In this document: one piece after another, positions 8,041 through 36,702 of the stretch
How the letters are laid out: the number at the start of each line of letters is the position of its first letter
How positions within the stretch are numbered: the first letter of the stretch is position 1
Origin: Natronobacterium texcoconense
GTDB taxonomy: Archaea; Halobacteriota; Halobacteria; Halobacteriales; Natrialbaceae
NCBI RefSeq assembly: GCF_900104065.1
Contig: NZ_FNLC01000001.1
Coordinates: 930,001 to 994,000 of the forward strand
Length of the DNA: 64,000 bases
Direction of reading: 5' to 3'
The notes under the pieces: generated by a model
What the model was told of the DNA's origin: nothing
Database searches by the model: none
Seen by the model: only the letters and a program-made list of their open reading frames with translations
Translations under genes and position numbers: made by a program

Positions 8041-9198
8041 TTAGAAGCCCTTACCGAGCATTTCGCGGGCGATGACGTTCTTCTGGATCTCGCTGGTGCC
8101 CTCGTAGATCTGGGTGATCTTGGCGTCGCGGTAGAACCGTTCGACGGGGAAGTCGTCGACGTAGCCGGCGCCGCCGTGGATCTGGACGGCTTCGTTGGCG
8201 ACGTCGACGGCGACGCGGGAGGCGTACTCTTTGGCCATCGACGCGAGCTTGGTGATGTCTTCGCCCTGGTCGACGTTCCAGGCGGCCTTGTACGTCAGGT
8301 TGCGGGCGGCCTCGGTGTCGGTCGCCATCTCCGCGAGCTTGTGCTGGATGGCCTGGAACTCCGAGATCGACTGGCCGAACTGTTCGCGGTCCTGTGCGTA
8401 CTCGAGGGCGGCGCGCGTGGCACCTTTCGCGATACCGACGCCCTGTGCGGCGACGGCGGTTCGGGTTTCGTCGAAGAACTGCATCTGCTGCATGAACGCG
8501 GCGTCTTTGGTTCCGACGAGGTTCTCCTCGGGGACGCGGACGTTGTCGAAGATGACCTCGGCGGTGTCGGACGAGCGGATACCCAGTTTGCCGGTGATCT
8601 TCTCGGTTTTGACGCCGTCGCGGTCGGTTTCGACGACGATCTGGCTGAAGCCGTTGTAGCGGCCCTCGGCGTCGGGGTTGGTCTTTGCGAGGACGACGAG
8701 GAAGTCGGCGACGGTGCCGTTGGTGATCCACATCTTGTTGCCGTTGAGCACCCACTCGTCGCCGTCTTTCTCGGCGCGCGTCGAGACCGAGGAGACGTCC
8801 GAGCCGGTGTCGGGTTCGGAGATCGCGGCACCCGAGATCTTCTCGCCCAGTGCGACGGGCTCGAGGAAGCGTTCCTTCTGGTCTTCGGTACCGAAGTTCA
8901 TGATCGCCTCACAGCCGAAGGAGGTGGAGACGATCGACAGCGCGATACCGGGGTCGTAGGAGAACAGTTCCTCGGTGATGATCGCGGTGTCGAGGATCGA
9001 GTAGCCAGCACCGCCGTACTCCATCGGGATGTACGACCCGGTCAGACCCATCTCGGCGGCCTTGTCGATGACGTCGTGGGGATATTTCTCTTCCTCGTCG
9101 TACTCGCCGGCGACGGGGACGATTTCGTTCTCCGCGAATCGCTGTACTTCTTCGCGAATCTGTTGCTGTTCTTCGGTGAGTCCGAATTCCATAGACAT
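8041..9198 (-). CDS. Acyl-CoA dehydrogenase
   Basis: A 385-residue FAD-dependent acyl-CoA dehydrogenase, full length for the family, catalysing the first alpha,beta-dehydrogenation in fatty-acid or branched-acid beta-oxidation. The helical N-terminal domain begins FGLTEEQQ. The middle domain holds the SEPDTGSD and WITNG signatures. The C-terminal helical domain ends with YEGTSEIQ, whose glutamate (about 366) is the usual catalytic base. It is divergent from the hydroxyacyl-CoA dehydrogenase/enoyl-CoA hydratase gene across a shared promoter region, so the two steps are likely co-regulated. Chain-length preference cannot be read from the sequence. Confidence 0.92.
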
Positions 9199-9307
9199 TA
9201 CTTACCGAGCGATCGATAAAGACCTTTGTAACCAGATATAAACTGAATTGTAGTTTGGTTTACGAAATAGGGAAACGTTCAAACCGGTGCCCATCGCATG
9301 TTTGCCC

Positions 9308-11281
9308 ATGGAGCTCGAAGACATCAACACCGTCGCAGTTCTCGGTGCTGGAAACATGGGCCACGGTATCGCGGAAGTCGCCGCGATGGCTGGCTACGAC
9401 GTGAACATGCGCGACATCAAAGAGGAGTTCGTCCAGGACGGCTACGACCAGATCGAGTGGTCGCTGGGCAAACTCGCCGAAAACGACCAGCTCAGCGAGG
9501 ACGAAGCTGACGCCGCTCTCGAGCGCGTCACGCCGCTGGTCGACATGGAGGAAGCGGTCTCGGACGCCGACGTCATCATCGAGGCCGTCCCCGAGAAGAT
9601 GGAGATCAAGAAGGACGTCTACGGCGACGTCGAGGAGCACGCCCCCGACCGCGCCATCTTCGCGACGAACACTTCGAGCCTCTCGATCACGGAACTCGCG
9701 GACGTCACGGACCGCCCCGAGCAGTTCTGTGGTATGCACTTCTTTAACCCGCCGGTCCGGATGCCGCTCGTCGAGGTCATCTCCGGTGCCGAAAGCGCCG
9801 AGGAGACCCTCGACGTGATCGAGGATCTCGCCGATGACTTCGGCAAGTCGCCGGTTCGCGTCCACAAGGACGCGCCCGGTTTCATCGTCAACCGCATCCT
9901 CGTTCCCCTGATGAACGAGGCCTCCTGGCTCGTCTCCGAGGACGAGGCGACCATCGCCGAGGTCGACTCGACCACGAAGTACGGCATGGGACTGCCGATG
10001 GGGAGCTTCGAACTCGGTGACCAGGTCGGCAACGACGTCAGCTACCACGTCCTCGAGTACATGCACGAGGTACTCGGCGACGCCTACGAGCCCGCGCCCC
10101 TGCTCGAGGAGAAAGTCGAGAACGAGGAACTCGGCAAGAAGACCGGCAAGGGCTTCTACGACTACGAGGACGGCGAGGGCGTCGACATCCCGACCGACGA
10201 GCAGTCCGAACTCGTCGAGGAGCGTCTGCTGGCTTCGATGGCAAACGAGGTCGCCAAGCTGATCGGCGGCGATGTCGCCCCGCCCGAATCGATCGACGAG
10301 GCCGTCCAGCTCGGTGCCGGCTTCCCCGACGGTCCCGTCAAGCAGGTCGACGAGTACGGCCTCGACGACTTGCTCTCCGTGCTCGAGGAGGCCTACGAGG
10401 AGACGGGCCACGAGCGCTACGAGCCCGCCGACTTCCTCGCGGAACGCGCCGACGAGGGTGGCTTCTACGAGAGCGACGAAGGCGACGACGGCGTCGACTT
10501 CGAGGCAATCCGCATCGAGTACCCCGGTGACATGGTGGGCCACATCGTCCTCGACCGCCCACACCGCATGAACACCATCAGCGACGAACTGCTCGAGGAG
10601 CTCTCGGCTGCGGTCGACCTGCTCGAGGAGGACGACGAGATTCGCTCGATCCTCGTCACCGGCGAGGGCGACAAGGCCTTCTCCGCTGGCGCTGACGTCC
10701 AGAGCATGGCCGGCAGCGGCGCCGACCCGATCGAGGGCCAGGAGCTCTCCCGTGCGGGCCAGCAGGCCTTCGGCGAACTCGAGTCCTGTGAGATGCCCGT
10801 CGTCGCCGGGATCGACGGCTACTGTCTCGGTGGCGGGATGGAACTGGCGACCTGTGCGGACATGCGCGTCGCCAGCGAGCGGTCGGAGTTCGGCCAGCCC
10901 GAACTCGACCTCGGCCTGATTCCGGGCTGGGGCGGCACCCAGCGACTCAAGCACATCGTCGGTGAAGGCCGCGCGAAGGAGATCATCCTCACCGCGGAGC
11001 GCTACGAGGCCGAGACGATGGCAGACTACGGCTTCGTCAACGAAATCGTCGACAACGACGACCTCGAGGACCGCGCGCTCGAACTGGCGACCGACCTCGC
11101 CGGCGGCCCGCCGATCGCCCAGAAGTTCACCAAGCGCGCCTTCCTCGCCGGCCGCGACGACACCGACGCCGGCCTCGAGTACGAGGCTTCCGCGTTCGGT
11201 CACCTGATGGCGACCGACGACCTCATGGAGGGTATCACGGCCTTCATGGGTGACGGCGAGCCGAACTTCGAGGGGAAGTGA
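9308..11281 (+). CDS. 3-hydroxyacyl-CoA dehydrogenase / enoyl-CoA hydratase fusion
   Basis: A 657-residue bifunctional beta-oxidation protein. The N-terminal 3-hydroxyacyl-CoA dehydrogenase NAD domain has VLGAGNMG (Gly13/15/18) and HFFNPPV. Its C-terminal domains run to about residue 385. A crotonase (enoyl-CoA hydratase/isomerase) domain follows from about 400 to the end, with FSAGAD, GGGMELA and QPELDLGLIPGWGGTQ. The order dehydrogenase-then-crotonase is the reverse of bacterial FadB, as in other archaeal fusions. The ATG at 9308 was chosen over an upstream GTG at 9287 because the Rossmann strand begins directly after it. With the divergent acyl-CoA dehydrogenase this covers three consecutive steps. 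Confidence 0.93.
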   Translation: MELEDINTVAVLGAGNMGHGIAEVAAMAGYDVNMRDIKEEFVQDGYDQIEWSLGKLAENDQLSEDEADAALERVTPLVDMEEAVSDADVIIEAVPEKMEIKKDVYGDVEEHAPDRAIFATNTSSLSITELADVTDRPEQFCGMHFFNPPVRMPLVEVISGAESAEETLDVIEDLADDFGKSPVRVHKDAPGFIVNRILVPLMNEASWLVSEDEATIAEVDSTTKYGMGLPMGSFELGDQVGNDVSYHVLEYMHEVLGDAYEPAPLLEEKVENEELGKKTGKGFYDYEDGEGVDIPTDEQSELVEERLLASMANEVAKLIGGDVAPPESIDEAVQLGAGFPDGPVKQVDEYGLDDLLSVLEEAYEETGHERYEPADFLAERADEGGFYESDEGDDGVDFEAIRIEYPGDMVGHIVLDRPHRMNTISDELLEELSAAVDLLEEDDEIRSILVTGEGDKAFSAGADVQSMAGSGADPIEGQELSRAGQQAFGELESCEMPVVAGIDGYCLGGGMELATCADMRVASERSEFGQPELDLGLIPGWGGTQRLKHIVGEGRAKEIILTAERYEAETMADYGFVNEIVDNDDLEDRALELATDLAGGPPIAQKFTKRAFLAGRDDTDAGLEYEASAFGHLMATDDLMEGITAFMGDGEPNFEGK

Positions 11282-11397: not shown

Positions 11398-12171
11398 TCA
11401 GTCGCGTTTTCGGGCACTTAGCGAGATGCTTTTCACGCCGTACTTCTGACAGGCGTTCGCCGCTCGCTCGGAGGTGAACTCGTAGTCTGTGTTTTCCTGG
11501 ACCATGGAGACGTCGAAGCTGGCCGTCTCGACCATGTCGGTGTAGCGATCGACCTGTTCGGCACCACCGATGCAGGCCGCCCACAGGTCCGCATCGCTCT
11601 TGATGCTCTCCGGCAACTGTTCGGCGCTGATGATATCCGAAACGGCGAGTCGGCCTCCGGGACGCAGCACTCGAGCGGCCTCCTCGAAGACTCGCTCTTT
11701 CTCGGCGGAGAGGTTGATCACGCCGTTCGAGATCACGACGTCGAACGATTCGTCTTCGAACGGGAGGTCTTCGATGTATCCCTGGCGGAACTCGACGTTG
11801 TGAAATCCGTTCTCCGCCGCGAGGGTTCTGGCCTTCTCGACCTGTTCTGGAGTCATGTCCACGCCGGTGACCGTTCCGGTCTCGGTTACGTGCAGGCCCG
11901 CGACGAACGCGTCCATCCCCGATCCGCTCCCGAGGTCGAGCACCGTCTCGCGCGGTTCGAGGCTCGCCAGTTCGAAGGGATAGCCGACGCCCGCGAACGA
12001 CTCGATCGCCGCGTCCGGAACGTAGTACAGGTCGTCGGGGTCGTAGCCGAGGCGTTCGGCGAGTTTCCGACCGGTCTCGAAGTGAAACTCCGCGTCGGCG
12101 GTTTCTGCGACGTCGCGATACATCGACTTGACCTCGTGTTCGAGTTTCTCCGTGTCGAGTGATTCGTTCAT
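11398..12171 (-). CDS. ArsM-like SAM-dependent methyltransferase
   Basis: A 257-residue class I methyltransferase related to arsenite methyltransferases. SAM motif I is VLDLGSGSGMD (about 77-87), followed by GVDMTPEQVEKA and later motifs including SNGVINL and RVLRPGGRLAVSDI. ArsM enzymes need cysteines in a CYGCG-like motif before motif I, but here that site reads FAGVG. Only Cys200 (WAACIGGAE) and Cys241 remain, so arsenic methylation is doubtful. The ATG at 12171 follows a GGTGA Shine-Dalgarno-like sequence; a GTG at 12180 is the alternative. It follows the OsmC gene by about 12 nt and is surely in its operon. Confidence 0.75.
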   Translation of the reverse strand: MNESLDTEKLEHEVKSMYRDVAETADAEFHFETGRKLAERLGYDPDDLYYVPDAAIESFAGVGYPFELASLEPRETVLDLGSGSGMDAFVAGLHVTETGTVTGVDMTPEQVEKARTLAAENGFHNVEFRQGYIEDLPFEDESFDVVISNGVINLSAEKERVFEEAARVLRPGGRLAVSDIISAEQLPESIKSDADLWAACIGGAEQVDRYTDMVETASFDVSMVQENTDYEFTSERAANACQKYGVKSISLSARKRD

Positions 12172-12183
12172 CGAACTCACCGG

Positions 12184-12789
12184 TTAGTCGTCGCCCGTCA
12201 CCTGAGCGGGCGTATTGATGGTCATTTCGACGTCTTGATCGAACGAGAGGAGTGTGTAGACGGGTGCTCGGCGCGCCCACTCGTCGATCAGTTCTTCGTC
12301 GAGGTCCGCACCGTCGATCTCGATTTCGGCAGTCAGATTCTCGAAGACCGAGTCGGACGCTTCGAGCCCTTCGAGACTGAACAGCACCGCCGGATCGAAA
12401 TCAGTCCGGACGCGCGTTCGGAGGTCGTCGATCTCGACGTTGTTGGCGGCGGCGTTGATGCTGATACCGACGTTGATACAGGCAGCGAGGGCCGACAGCG
12501 CGACTTCGATCGGTTCCATCCGGTCTGTCGCGCCGATCCATCCGCCAGCGTCCAGTACTTCCTTCCAGCCGCCGTATAGAAGCGTGTACTCGCGGGTTTC
12601 GCGACTGATCGTCTCGCCACCGAGGTCGTAGCTGTCGATCTTTGCCAGGCTGTGTGCGGCCGTCCCCTCGTAGGTTGCGGACGCTCCGAGGCCAAACTGG
12701 ACCGCTTCTGGCTCGTTCGCTGCATGTTCGGCGAACCCCTCGAGCGTTTCGAGGTCGATACCGTGTGCAGTTTGTTGATCGTTAGTCAT
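12184..12789 (-). CDS. OsmC family protein
   Basis: A 201-residue OsmC/Ohr-fold protein. The core helix carries LSALAACINVGIS with Cys104, matching the first peroxidatic cysteine of the family. The position of the second family cysteine appears as RAPVY, so the protein has only one cysteine and cannot form the usual intramolecular disulfide. A thiol-dependent or non-peroxidatic role is possible. It is the first gene of a two-gene operon with the methyltransferase and lies downstream of a FilR1-like regulator gene, on the same strand. Confidence 0.82.
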   Translation of the reverse strand: MTNDQQTAHGIDLETLEGFAEHAANEPEAVQFGLGASATYEGTAAHSLAKIDSYDLGGETISRETREYTLLYGGWKEVLDAGGWIGATDRMEPIEVALSALAACINVGISINAAANNVEIDDLRTRVRTDFDPAVLFSLEGLEASDSVFENLTAEIEIDGADLDEELIDEWARRAPVYTLLSFDQDVEMTINTPAQVTGDD

Positions 12790-12854
12790 TCTCGTATCAC
12801 TTCCCGGCGAAAGAAGCTACGAATCCGACAGTGTTGTAGCTATTTTGTGACGTT

Positions 12855-12871
12855 TCGGCAGTCACTGCCGA
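12855..12871. promoter_or_regulatory. 17-bp palindrome upstream of the OsmC operon
   Basis: TCGGCAGT-C-ACTGCCGA is a perfect palindrome about 66-82 nt upstream of the OsmC start and just upstream of an AT-rich TATA-like element (minus strand CAAAATAG, near 12845). The position suits binding by the neighbouring HTH regulator. This is an inference. Confidence 0.45.
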
Positions 12872-13018
12872 TCTTGCACCCCCTGCAACCGAATCGACGG
12901 TTTCCAGTCGATACACCGAACTCCCTTCTCGTGGACTCGTCCGGTCTGCTGTACCGATTTTCCGGAGAACTGCGACTCGTTCTGCGGTTGCGCCGTCGGT
13001 GACTGACAGCAGTCCGTA

Positions 13019-13843
13019 CTACTCGACGATCTGTTGTGGGTCGACCGGCCGAGCGTCGGACGTGTAGCTCTCGTATACCGACTCCGCCCACTCGCGGACC
13101 ACCGGTACGTCGGTATCGATCACTGCCTGAACCGTGCCGCTGTCCTGCTCGTAACAGCTGATAGCGACGCGCTCGTCGAGGAGACCGGTTCCGTACTGTG
13201 GCAGTTTGTCGTGCTCCAGAACCGTGAAATTGTCCTGTTGCAGCATCTCCGAACTGCGATCCGGGTACGTCGAGAGAAAGTACGTATGGCAGTTCGGCCG
13301 GTCGATCAACGTGACGTCCACGCCGTCGTCGATCAGTCGATACAGGAGGTCGAGACAGGGCTCCATCAGCGCGACCTCTGGTCGAAGAAATCGTAACGTG
13401 GTCGTCGTCCGGAGAAGCGACTCGAATCGGTTCACCGGACGATACGGAGCATCGGGCTCGGCAGTGGTTACGGTTAGATCCGCCCACGCCTCGGTCGAAA
13501 GCTCGCTGATCTCGTCGGGGAGCCAGTCCCAGACGTCACGCAACTTGCGCTCGGTCTCGACCCGTTCGATCAGGTCCTCCATTCCGGCCGCGATAGCCTC
13601 TCCCAGCCGAGTCGCCAGATACTGGTAGCCGTCCTTGCGGATCCAGACACGATCATCGAACTCGTCCAGCGTCCGACGCATCGTCGACGAGGAGACGCCA
13701 GTCAACTCGCAGAGCTCGGAGCGACTCCGGGGCCGTTCCGTCAGTGCGACGAGCGCCGGGATGCGGTGTTCGGACCGTGCGAGATACGCGATATCACCGG
13801 TTGGCGAGTCGCTAGGATAGTGGCGTGCGTTATCAACGCCCAT
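13019..13843 (-). CDS. Winged-HTH transcriptional regulator, FilR1-like
   Basis: A 274-residue haloarchaeal regulator. An N-terminal winged HTH (about residues 25-80, with LCELTGVSSSTMRRTLDEF) is followed by an alpha/beta domain of the type found in methanogenesis regulatory protein FilR1 and many haloarchaeal regulators (LRFLRPEVALMEP...VTLIDRPNCHTYFLS). The second domain probably senses a small ligand. The gene lies 229 nt upstream of the OsmC/methyltransferase operon on the same strand and is the best candidate for its control. Confidence 0.8.
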   Translation of the reverse strand: MGVDNARHYPSDSPTGDIAYLARSEHRIPALVALTERPRSRSELCELTGVSSSTMRRTLDEFDDRVWIRKDGYQYLATRLGEAIAAGMEDLIERVETERKLRDVWDWLPDEISELSTEAWADLTVTTAEPDAPYRPVNRFESLLRTTTTLRFLRPEVALMEPCLDLLYRLIDDGVDVTLIDRPNCHTYFLSTYPDRSSEMLQQDNFTVLEHDKLPQYGTGLLDERVAISCYEQDSGTVQAVIDTDVPVVREWAESVYESYTSDARPVDPQQIVE

Positions 13844-14047: not shown

Positions 14048-15199
14048 CTACGGCGCCTGCCCGTAGATCAGGTTCCGCTGGATCTCGTTTGCCCCTTCGT
14101 AGATGACCGGAATGCGGGCGTCGCGATAGGTGCGAGCGATCCGTCGCTCGTCGAGAACGGAGCGGCCACCGTGGAACTGCATCCCTTGCTCGGAGACGCC
14201 GACGGCAGTCTCGGTCGCCTTCGTCTTCGCCATCGCAGCCCAGTAGCCGGCGTTCTCGCCCTCCTGAACTTTCTCGCAGGCACGCCAGGCCAGCGCTCGA
14301 GCGCTCTCGAACTCGAGTAACATATCGGCGAGACCGTGCTGGACGGCCTGGAACTCGTTTATCGTCCGGCCGAACTCCTCGCGGTCGTGGGTGAACTCCC
14401 AGGCTTCCTCGAGGGCGGCCGCGGCGATGCCGAGTCCGTGGCCGGCGACGACGACTCGGCCGTGGTTGAAAAACTCCGCGAGCATCCAGAACCCCGCGCC
14501 CTCGGTGCCGATCAGGTTCTCCTCGGGGATCCGGCAGTCGTCGAACTCGACGTGGGCCTGCTTCGAGGCGCGCATCGCCATCTTCTCGGGGATGTGTTCG
14601 GCCTCGTAGCCGTCGGCGTCGGTCGGGACGATGAACATCGAGTGGTTGCCGTACCGGTTCTCCTCGTCGTCGCCCGTGCGGGCGTAGAGGGTGATCCAGT
14701 CGGCCTCGACGCCGTTGCCGATCCAGTACTTCTCGCCGTTGATGACCCACTCGTCTCCCTCCTTTTCGGCGCGCGTTTGCATCCCCGCGAGGTCGCTTCC
14801 GGTGTCGGGTTCCGAGACGGCCAGTCCCGAGAGCTGGTCGCCCTCTGCGACCGGCCGGAGGTACTCCTCGCACTGCTCGTCGCTGCCGTACTCGTAGGTG
14901 ATCTCACAGCCGAAACTCGCGAGTTGCAGCGTCAGCGCGATACCGGCGTCGGCCCGGTAGAACTCTTCGGTGATTGCGAGCAACTGGGGGAGGTCGAGCC
15001 CGCGGCCGCCCCATTTCTCGGGGATGTCCTGGGCGACGAGGTTCGCCTCCTGGCCGGCTTCGAGGATCTCGTGGGGGTACTCACCCGAACTGAAATACTC
15101 CTCGGCGTTCGGACGGATGTGCTCGTCGGCGAATTCGCGGGCTTCGGCCTTTATCTCGTGTGCGTTCTCCGGGACGATGCTGTCGTCGAGTGGCTCCAT
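14048..15199 (-). CDS. Acyl-CoA dehydrogenase, second paralog
   Basis: A 383-residue acyl-CoA dehydrogenase of the same architecture as the enzyme at 8041-9198 but clearly diverged. It has the SEPDTGSD and WIGNGVEADW middle-domain signatures and a C-terminal YEGANEIQ, whose glutamate (about 368) is the likely catalytic base. It probably oxidises a different acyl-CoA. No other beta-oxidation gene is adjacent. A palindromic repeat follows the stop codon. Confidence 0.9.
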   Translation of the reverse strand: MEPLDDSIVPENAHEIKAEAREFADEHIRPNAEEYFSSGEYPHEILEAGQEANLVAQDIPEKWGGRGLDLPQLLAITEEFYRADAGIALTLQLASFGCEITYEYGSDEQCEEYLRPVAEGDQLSGLAVSEPDTGSDLAGMQTRAEKEGDEWVINGEKYWIGNGVEADWITLYARTGDDEENRYGNHSMFIVPTDADGYEAEHIPEKMAMRASKQAHVEFDDCRIPEENLIGTEGAGFWMLAEFFNHGRVVVAGHGLGIAAAALEEAWEFTHDREEFGRTINEFQAVQHGLADMLLEFESARALAWRACEKVQEGENAGYWAAMAKTKATETAVGVSEQGMQFHGGRSVLDERRIARTYRDARIPVIYEGANEIQRNLIYGQAP

Positions 15200-16286: not shown

Positions 16287-16715
16287 TTATCGGCCCTGTG
16301 CGATCGGATCGAACTCGTCGACCGGGATGACCGAGTAGTCGACCGTCAGCGCGTCCTGGGTCGCGCGGATCTTGCCGACGAACGTCGAGATGTCCTCGAG
16401 TTCACCCTCGAGCACGAACAGTTCCATACAGTAGTGGTCGCCGACGTGGCTGTGGAAGTTCGAGGCGACGAGGTCCTCGTGTTCGTGGCGCAGGTGCATC
16501 ATGCGCTCTTCGACGCTGGTGGTCTCGTAGTCGAACAGGACCGTGACGATCCCCATCAGTTCTCGATCCTCGAGTCGGGTGTCCTCGAACTCGCCGAGCA
16601 GGTTCCGGGAGGCCTCGCGGACGACCTCGCTGCGGCCGGTGTAGCCGTGTTCGTCGGCGAACTGGTCGAGTCGCTCGAGGAGTTCGTCGGGCATCGAGAC
16701 GCTTACGACTGCCAT
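16287..16715 (-). CDS. nikR: NikR-type nickel-responsive regulator
   Basis: A 142-residue protein. The N-terminal ribbon-helix-helix DNA-binding domain ([22 protein letters not shown], then GRSEVVREA) is followed by the NikR ACT-like nickel-binding domain. The metal ligands are visible: a histidine in LRHEHEDL, then HSHVGDHYC, which matches the His-x-His...Cys site of NikR. It represses nickel uptake in other organisms, but no nickel transporter is in this window. The ATG at 16715 begins the RHH strand; a longer frame to 16829 is not needed. Divergent from the creatininase-family gene. Confidence 0.88.
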
Positions 16716-16859
16716 ATAATAACTCGGCCGCCATCGACTATTAACCTTTACTATCTTTTTCGTCTTCGCAGGGTGAACGGTCCGGGAACCGGGCCGAGAA
16801 CGGCTTCGACGAGCGATCGGAGCACACAACGTTTTGCGGCTTCATCGAGAGATGGGAGT

Positions 16860-36231: not shown

Positions 36232-36702
36232 ATGAACGTTCGCGGTTCACTCACCGAGGAACAGGTCGTCGAGTTCCTCGAGAGCCAGACGGTTCCGATC
36301 AGAGTCGCCTGCCGGACGCCGTCCGGCCACCTCTGGATGCTGTCGCTGTGGTACCGCCGTCGGGACGAAGCCGACAGCTGGACGCTCGCGTGTGCTACGT
36401 CGGCGAACGCGACCGTCGTCGACTACCTGACCCACGACGCGAAACCGGCGGTTGCCTTCGAGGTTTCGACGAACCATCCGCCCTACCGTGGCGTTCGCGG
36501 TCGTGGTACGGCATCCGTCGCGCCCGACCCGGAGAAAGAGACGCTCCGTGCGCTCCTCGAGCGATACCTCGATGGGACGGAGTCGGAACTGGCACGGACG
36601 TTGCTACGGGAGGAGCGTGAGGAAGTGACGATCACGATCGACCCTGTTACCGTGTACGGCTGGGATTTCTCGGAGCGAATGCGCGAGCGGAAAGAGCAGT
36701 GA
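36232..36702 (+). CDS. Pyridoxamine 5'-phosphate oxidase-like flavin-binding protein
   Basis: A 156-residue split-barrel protein. The N-terminal helix-strand pattern (LTEEQVVEFLESQTVPIRVACRTPSGHLWMLSLWYRR) and the later AVAFEVSTNHPPYRGVRGRG are typical of PNPOx-like/F420-binding small oxidoreductases. It may use FMN, heme or F420. The ATG at 36232 lies 9 nt after the repeat array and was preferred to an upstream start at 36172 lying inside the repeats. Confidence 0.8.
   Translation: MNVRGSLTEEQVVEFLESQTVPIRVACRTPSGHLWMLSLWYRRRDEADSWTLACATSANATVVDYLTHDAKPAVAFEVSTNHPPYRGVRGRGTASVAPDPEKETLRALLERYLDGTESELARTLLREEREEVTITIDPVTVYGWDFSERMRERKEQ

Follow-up and report, generated by a model that had tools for sequence, protein, structure and literature searches.

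A FAGVG-type sister family of the arsenite methyltransferase ArsM and its one-cysteine OsmC partner in Natronobacterium texcoconense, with a tentative role in sulfur methylation

Arsenite methyltransferases of the ArsM type are recognised in a published survey by the presence of at least three of the four cysteines equivalent to residues 44, 72, 174 and 224 of CmArsM (passages of PMC5552862). Enzymes with fewer cysteines have also been reported to methylate arsenite, namely a two-cysteine ArsM, according to the title of the paper describing it, and the one-cysteine TtArsM, according to passages of PMC8649762. Among class I methyltransferases, MddM1 and MddM2 are reported to methylate H2S and methanethiol (MeSH), an activity linked to sulfide and oxidative stress (passages of PMC12904073); the main text of that paper mentions neither ArsM nor OsmC. 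In this study, we analysed an operon that couples an ArsM-like methyltransferase to an OsmC-family protein with a single cysteine, located in a 64,000-nucleotide stretch of the haloarchaeon Natronobacterium texcoconense (NZ_FNLC01000001.1, positions 930,001 to 994,000; the whole stretch is hereafter called the window). Literature searches for OsmC together with ArsM, also in haloarchaea, for DsrE with methyltransferase, ArsR and rhodanese, and for ArsM-type selenoproteins, covering mostly titles, listings and open-licence text, yielded no description of such a pair, passages of PMC6620896 and PMC6305408 do not describe one, and a search on OsmC with persulfide and sulfane sulfur gave no match. 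The methyltransferases marked by the motif FAGVG form a sister family that can be told apart from ArsM and that recurrently has a thiol protein as its partner.

All three genes of the original prediction, a regulator, an OsmC and a methyltransferase, were found between positions 11398 and 13843, on the minus strand. The features of the locus are as follows.

13843-13019, minus strand: transcription regulator with an HVO_A0261_N winged helix and a FilR1_middle sensor domain (domain matches)
12797-12899, minus strand: conserved promoter element with a TTGCA..TGCAA dyad, a CGGCAG-N3-CTGCCG dyad and CAC-N4-TAGCTAC...CGTAG (aligned loci)
12855-12871, no strand: 17-bp odd palindrome TCGGCAGTCACTGCCGA, the central dyad of the promoter element
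12789-12184, minus strand: OsmC-family protein with the single cysteine C104 (reading frame and OsmC domain)
12180-11398, minus strand: FAGVG-family, ArsM-fold, S-adenosylmethionine (SAM)-dependent methyltransferase with a GTG start (profile matches)
11572-11574, minus strand: codon of methyltransferase residue C203, equivalent to C224 of CmArsM (coordinate derived from the reading frame)

The OsmC stop codon and the GTG of the methyltransferase are 3 bp apart. Many relatives of the methyltransferase begin at the position of its ATG at 12171, which makes this ATG a likelier start than the GTG; residues are nevertheless numbered from the GTG below. The methyltransferase matched the domain Methyltransf_31. 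The regulator scored 94.4 bits for HVO_A0261_N (cut-off 35) and 85.7 bits for FilR1_middle (cut-off 27), in agreement with the FilR1-like protein predicted for this position.

The motif FAGVG, earlier read in place of a CYGCG-like site, does stand where ArsM has xxGCG, and the methyltransferase contains just two cysteines, C203 and C244, which are the C200 and C241 of the original prediction when counted from the ATG three codons later. In a phmmer alignment with CmArsM, whose arsenite cysteines were numbered after passages of PMC5552862, V65 falls at C72, G153 at C174 and C203 at C224. We then aligned 52 haloarchaeal-type and 27 bacterial relatives with seven ArsMs taken from annotated plasmid records. 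Position 65 is valine in 79/79 relatives and cysteine in 7/7 ArsMs, position 153 is glycine in 79/79 and cysteine in 7/7, and position 203 is cysteine in all 79 relatives and in six of the seven ArsMs, the remaining one having an in-frame TGA at this position; the upstream CC pair present in all seven ArsM rows is missing from the window enzyme. Of the 94 rows of the family, 93 have the exact motif FAGVG (the other has YAGVG) and all keep C203. C244 is found in 52 of the 54 haloarchaeal-type rows and in 2 of the 40 bacterial ones, and C195 in 34 of 40 bacterial and none of the 54 haloarchaeal-type rows. As judged from these alignments, the family retains one ArsM cysteine and usually gains a second one at a lineage-dependent site.

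The claim that the enzyme is without the arsenic-binding cysteines consequently stands for the C72 and C174 equivalents but not for that of C224, and a loss of every arsenic cysteine was rejected since C203 occupies the C224 position. With only the C224 equivalent retained, the enzyme falls short of the survey rule of at least three cysteines. Because the one-cysteine TtArsM methylates arsenite (passages of PMC8649762), however, cysteine loss alone is not proof of lost arsenite activity, and the original premise that ArsM needs three cysteines was too strong. The ArsM with the in-frame TGA is encoded on a Paraclostridium plasmid (L123:2980-3738), and this TGA is likely a selenocysteine codon. 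In a review, arsenite methyltransferase is included among the selenoproteins and given a UxxG motif (passages of PMC13188914); C203-x-x-G of the window enzyme is compatible with this motif.

The closest NCBIfam model to the methyltransferase was NF008823 (PRK11873, 'arsenite methyltransferase'), at 247.5 bits against a curated cut-off of 263, followed by NF041537, NF041536 and NF047649 at 206, 197 and 195 bits (cut-offs 510, 575 and 460). In a PHROGs search the methyltransferase matched generic methyltransferases only and OsmC had no match. An AlphaFold model built with 56 sequences (mean predicted local distance difference test score, pLDDT, 89.8) had CmArsM as its best structure match (6cx6, Z 25.8, root-mean-square deviation 2.2, 224 residues), with further ArsM structures 4fr0 and 5evj at Z 25.5 and 24.9, which bears out the ArsM fold noticed originally. 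Since other class I methyltransferases reach Z 22.7 and lower (AtmM, geranyl diphosphate methyltransferase and MitM lie between 21 and 23) and additional ArsM entries score about 20, the fold by itself is a weak guide to the substrate.

A comparison with true ArsM by phylogeny had been proposed as a check, and the two groups came out as separate clades. A quick tree of 97 rows places the FAGVG enzymes of this kind together (71 rows; Shimodaira-Hasegawa-like approximate likelihood ratio test, SH-aLRT, 91) and apart from the ArsM clade (15 rows, SH-aLRT 84), although both support values fall short of 95, the mark set by the tool. Members of the haloarchaeal type make up a single clade (35 rows, SH-aLRT 99); because it is nested among bacterial members, the tree, whose deep and outgroup branches are long and whose root is unsure, suggests that the family may have entered haloarchaea by one transfer. 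Left off the tree were L069 and L102b (in-frame stops), L098 and L103 (partial) and 20 rows thinned by choice. A contig of a metagenome-assembled genome labelled Halanaerobiaceae (Bacillota), L064, carries a haloarchaeal-type methyltransferase of 70% identity and is probably misbinned; it was grouped with haloarchaea in the tree and in the sets of 52 and 54 rows, and left out of the counts on 51 haloarchaeal loci.

Gene context sets the FAGVG methyltransferases apart from ArsM. The control consisted of seven plasmid ArsM loci and of the 30 true ArsM loci that scored best in 146 genomes of the host's order, with flanks of 1.5 kb for the genome ArsM loci and up to 5 kb for named FAGVG loci. An ArsR gene is present in 29 of the 30 haloarchaeal ArsM loci, and OsmC, DsrE or a regulator of the window type in none of the 37; conversely, no homologue of the haloarchaeal ArsR was matched in the FAGVG loci searched at E 1e-5. 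Bacterial ArsR-rhodanese fusions were found with a profile of their own and not with the haloarchaeal ArsR query, and this profile also picked up the ordinary ArsR found at several ArsM loci (E 1e-5 to 1e-12); the sigma factor profile used below likewise matched one ArsM plasmid locus (L122).

The window OsmC belongs to the OsmC domain family (PF02566, 39.9 bits, cut-off 27.5), and C104 is its sole cysteine, as originally noted; this residue is invariant in the 32 sequences aligned. The second redox site reads A-P-V, where Ohr/OsmC peroxidases usually have the cysteine of their CPV motif, and the protein has just one of the two redox cysteines of OsmC/Ohr thiol peroxidases. Some relatives have another cysteine at position 43. 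The AlphaFold model of this protein was poor (pLDDT 60.4) and its structure matches were not used for residues. At L022:1501-3202, tyrosine replaces C104, the sole cysteine of OsmC, and the methyltransferase encoded downstream is not the family enzyme but another one, by eye of F07 type.

Pairing was counted in 293 genomes of the host's order, with OsmC at a minimum of 65% identity and the methyltransferase at a minimum of 58%. These genomes hold 40 OsmC genes of the window type (in 39 genomes) and 51 family methyltransferases (3 partial, in 44 genomes), and 27 of each adjoin, at match-to-match distances of 6-32 bp and, once, 203 bp. Among the 30 best-scoring OsmC loci, the regulator lies within 1.5 kb in all, a full methyltransferase is present in 22 and a remnant in 1, and 7 have none. 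Among named genomes, the regulator was found at any distance in 41/51 haloarchaeal methyltransferase loci, and OsmC within 1.5 kb of the methyltransferase in 33/51 haloarchaeal and 5/13 actinobacterial loci. A pair confined to the host genome, which the original prediction had named as grounds for its own refutation, was rejected, since the pair recurs in other haloarchaeal genomes and in Actinomycetota. A strict operon partnership was rejected as well, with 11 of the 293 genomes having OsmC without the methyltransferase and 16 the methyltransferase without window-type OsmC; some of the latter carry another OsmC type (L148, L150).

A second pair is present in the host genome outside the window (C1:836134-837230, L002). 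Its methyltransferase is 67% identical to that of the window. The host genome had no match to the Halobacterium ArsM at E 1e-80, and its third-best match to the window enzyme reaches just 53 bits. The second pair adjoins VKOR-family and CBS-domain genes, and its 3.8 kb locus showed no copy of the window-type regulator. Besides this VKOR gene, the sulfur-type genes seen near haloarchaeal copies are the DsbA, redoxin and glutaredoxin-like genes of the plasmid locus L126. Another haloarchaeal locus, L078, has the gene order regulator, DUF1059, OsmC, methyltransferase and membrane protein F03. In one haloarchaeal subgroup, such a small DUF1059 protein (L078:4204-4377) is encoded after the regulator and before OsmC. 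F03 (L078:5774-6277), for which no curated family matched above cut-off, lies directly downstream of the methyltransferase in 15/51 haloarchaeal and 3/40 bacterial loci (Kribbella).

In the two bacterial samples searched the family is rare, being found in 7/300 genomes of the order of Ramlibacter (E 1e-75) and 7/396 Actinomycetota genomes (E 1e-70), the query's genome included in each case. DsrE lies within 1.5 kb of the methyltransferase in 2/13 Actinomycetota loci and 13/27 other bacterial loci, a CxxC is present in all 10 DsrE proteins aligned, and OsmC and DsrE occur together in none of the 40 bacterial loci. ArsR-rhodanese fusions were detected in 10/40 of these loci at any distance (5/40 within 1.5 kb) and a metallo-beta-lactamase-fold hydrolase, matching Blh/GloB models below their cut-offs, in 6/40 (1/40 within 1.5 kb). 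DUF6691/Sulf_transp proteins occur in L096 and L101, that of L101 matching models of thiosulfate (TsuA) and selenium (YedE) transporters, both far below cut-off. An extracytoplasmic function (ECF) sigma factor is present in 12/40 loci, in many cases together with zf-HC2 and with another methyltransferase of a related type. Loci with an ECF sigma factor and an anti-sigma-like zf-HC2 protein near the methyltransferase are L092, L094, L095, L097, L100, L102, L106, L111, L114 and L115, and they usually have this additional methyltransferase too.

The palindrome TCGGCAGTCACTGCCGA, originally described as a perfect 17-bp palindrome at 12855, is present, but 'perfect' ignores its central base, as it is of odd length with the structure 8+1+8. 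It is not striking by itself, a notion that was rejected because the window holds two odd palindromes with arms of at least 8 bases against a mean of 2.0 in 20 triplet shuffles. The other one is GCCGGACGCCGTCCGGC at 36311-36327. Judging from the aligned loci, the palindrome is meaningful through its place in the conserved promoter element, which in 50 rows precedes whichever gene, by inspection, opens the operon (OsmC, DUF1059 or the methyltransferase). These related rows were obtained from 61 pattern rows by locus choice on inspection, and their CAC-N4-TA.CTA columns are conserved by construction because the rows were anchored on them. In the CGGCAG/CTGCCG dyad, 64% of pairs are complementary in the 50 rows, compared with about 25% for random bases. 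Searched across the 4.0 Mb genome, the element core is matched exactly once and, with 3 mismatches, at one further site, while its reversed control had no match. Among the promoter loci listed, the window copy TCGGCAGTCACTGCCGA is the longest uninterrupted central dyad.

We tentatively read the operon as an S-methyltransferase module acting on a reactive form of sulfur, be it sulfide, sulfur at the persulfide level or a small thiol, a reading to which we give nearly an even chance. It is the most economical one because the arsenic site is down to one invariant cysteine and a thiol protein often adjoins. SAM would be bound by the Rossmann core of the methyltransferase, and the invariant C203, an arsenic ligand in ArsM, would hold or activate the sulfur for methylation, or alternatively accept sulfur from C104 of OsmC or from DsrE; the second cysteine, C244 or C195 depending on the lineage, may resolve an intermediate. 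The one-cysteine OsmC would be the thiol partner of the methyltransferase, a role that DsrE with its CxxC may fill in many other bacteria, and the FilR1-type regulator might switch the operon via the conserved dyad element. In a more specific form, which we consider doubtful, OsmC (or DsrE) would bear sulfane sulfur or sulfide in the form of a protein persulfide and pass it on to C203, where it would then be methylated. If true, such carrier-dependent sulfur methylation would be a new job for OsmC and a further chemistry of the ArsM fold, in haloarchaea and several bacterial phyla.

The original proposal that the pair acts on a substrate other than arsenite gains from the loss of two arsenic cysteines in 79/79 relatives, from pairing beyond the host, from DsrE and other sulfur-type neighbours and from the lack of haloarchaeal ArsR homologues in the loci searched; its three-cysteine premise and an obligatory pairing did not hold. 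Several observations weigh against a sulfur-methylating module. The pairing is loose, as the 11 and 16 genomes with one gene only indicate, in half of the bacterial loci (20/40) no OsmC or DsrE lies within 1.5 kb of the methyltransferase, C104 is replaced by tyrosine in the OsmC of L022, and arsenite methylation by a single-cysteine ArsM has been reported (passages of PMC8649762). Moreover, the link to sulfur leans mainly on bacterial homologues, which are 52-59% identical, since the sulfur-type neighbours seen at haloarchaeal copies are those of L002 and L126.

The enzyme might instead be a divergent low-cysteine arsenic methyltransferase whose substrate could, for instance, be methylarsenite or arsenic bound to thiols, OsmC being the thiol reductant. 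ArsM supplies its three closest fold matches and PRK11873 its closest NCBIfam model, C203 retains an arsenic-ligand position and TtArsM functions with one cysteine (passages of PMC8649762); against this, the score is under the NF008823 cut-off, the cysteine rule (passages of PMC5552862) fails, and the FAGVG loci searched have OsmC or DsrE often where ArsR would be, with no haloarchaeal ArsR homologue compared with 29 of 30 ArsM loci. We consider this explanation unlikely. Quite unlikely, in our judgement, is an ordinary class I O-, N- or C-methyltransferase working on a small organic molecule, with OsmC an unrelated stress protein that shares the promoter. Many class I enzymes do have the same fold, OsmC and regulator occur without the methyltransferase in 7 of the 30 best loci (and with a remnant in one more), and a different methyltransferase follows OsmC in L022, but an ordinary enzyme of this kind sits poorly with C203 in 94/94 rows and with the recurrence of the OsmC-methyltransferase order in Archaea and Actinomycetota and of DsrE beside the methyltransferase elsewhere.

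UbiE-like enzymes methylate tellurium and selenium, and the operon could likewise convert selenide or telluride, derived from selenite or tellurite, to volatile products while OsmC holds the chalcogen. The in-frame TGA of L123 at the C203-equivalent site and the fit of C203-x-x-G to the UxxG motif of ArsM selenoproteins (passages of PMC13188914) speak for this. However, the neighbours of the FAGVG genes examined showed no selenium gene that passes a curated cut-off, Sulf_transp of L101 is far below cut-off for TsuA and YedE alike, and DsrE and rhodanese suit sulfur at least equally, so that we regard selenium or tellurium as an unlikely substrate.

Because FAGVG methyltransferases score close to the arsenite methyltransferase model, a loose search could miscount their genes as arsM, and the combination of FAGVG, missing C72 and C174 equivalents and missing ArsR provides a simple discriminator in surveys of arsenic methylation. 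If sulfur is indeed methylated, the family would give haloarchaea and several bacterial phyla an additional route to methylated sulfur, and one-cysteine OsmC proteins would gain a testable role.

The genes flanking the operon encode, by eye, acyl-CoA dehydrogenases and a fused hydroxyacyl-CoA dehydrogenase/enoyl-CoA hydratase (8041-9198, 9287-11281 and 14048-15199), fatty-acid oxidation genes that are probably unrelated to it. A NikR-like protein with RHH_1 and NikR_C domains is encoded at 16287-16829; it narrowly exceeds one NikR equivalog cut-off (84.7 versus 83) and fails the others.

With regard to known systems, the window OsmC shares its domain with the OsmC/Ohr peroxidases and lacks their second redox cysteine; its best sequence match of solved structure, the OsmC-like GSU2788 (2opl, E 0.00024), has S-P-V where the window protein has A-P-V. 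MddH, MddM1 and MddM2, compared by description only, are SAM-dependent class I methyltransferases for which a role in the detoxification of sulfide and MeSH has been proposed, MddM1 (210 aa) being of the UbiG family and MddM2 (204 aa) and MddH of the UbiE family (passages of PMC12904073). From the ArsM-type selenoproteins of NF041537, NF041536 and NF047649, whose UxxG motif (passages of PMC13188914) fits the C203 site, the window methyltransferase differs in scoring far under the cut-offs and in having no in-frame TGA. With ArsM/AS3MT itself (CmArsM; NF008823) it has the fold, the SAM core and the C224-equivalent cysteine in common, and it is 45% identical to the ArsM of Halobacterium pNRC100 over 86% of its length. 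It differs from ArsM in the replacement of C72 by valine and of C174 by glycine, in the missing upstream CC pair and in its separate clade, and FAGVG loci differ from ArsM loci in being without ArsR and in having OsmC or DsrE often adjoining.

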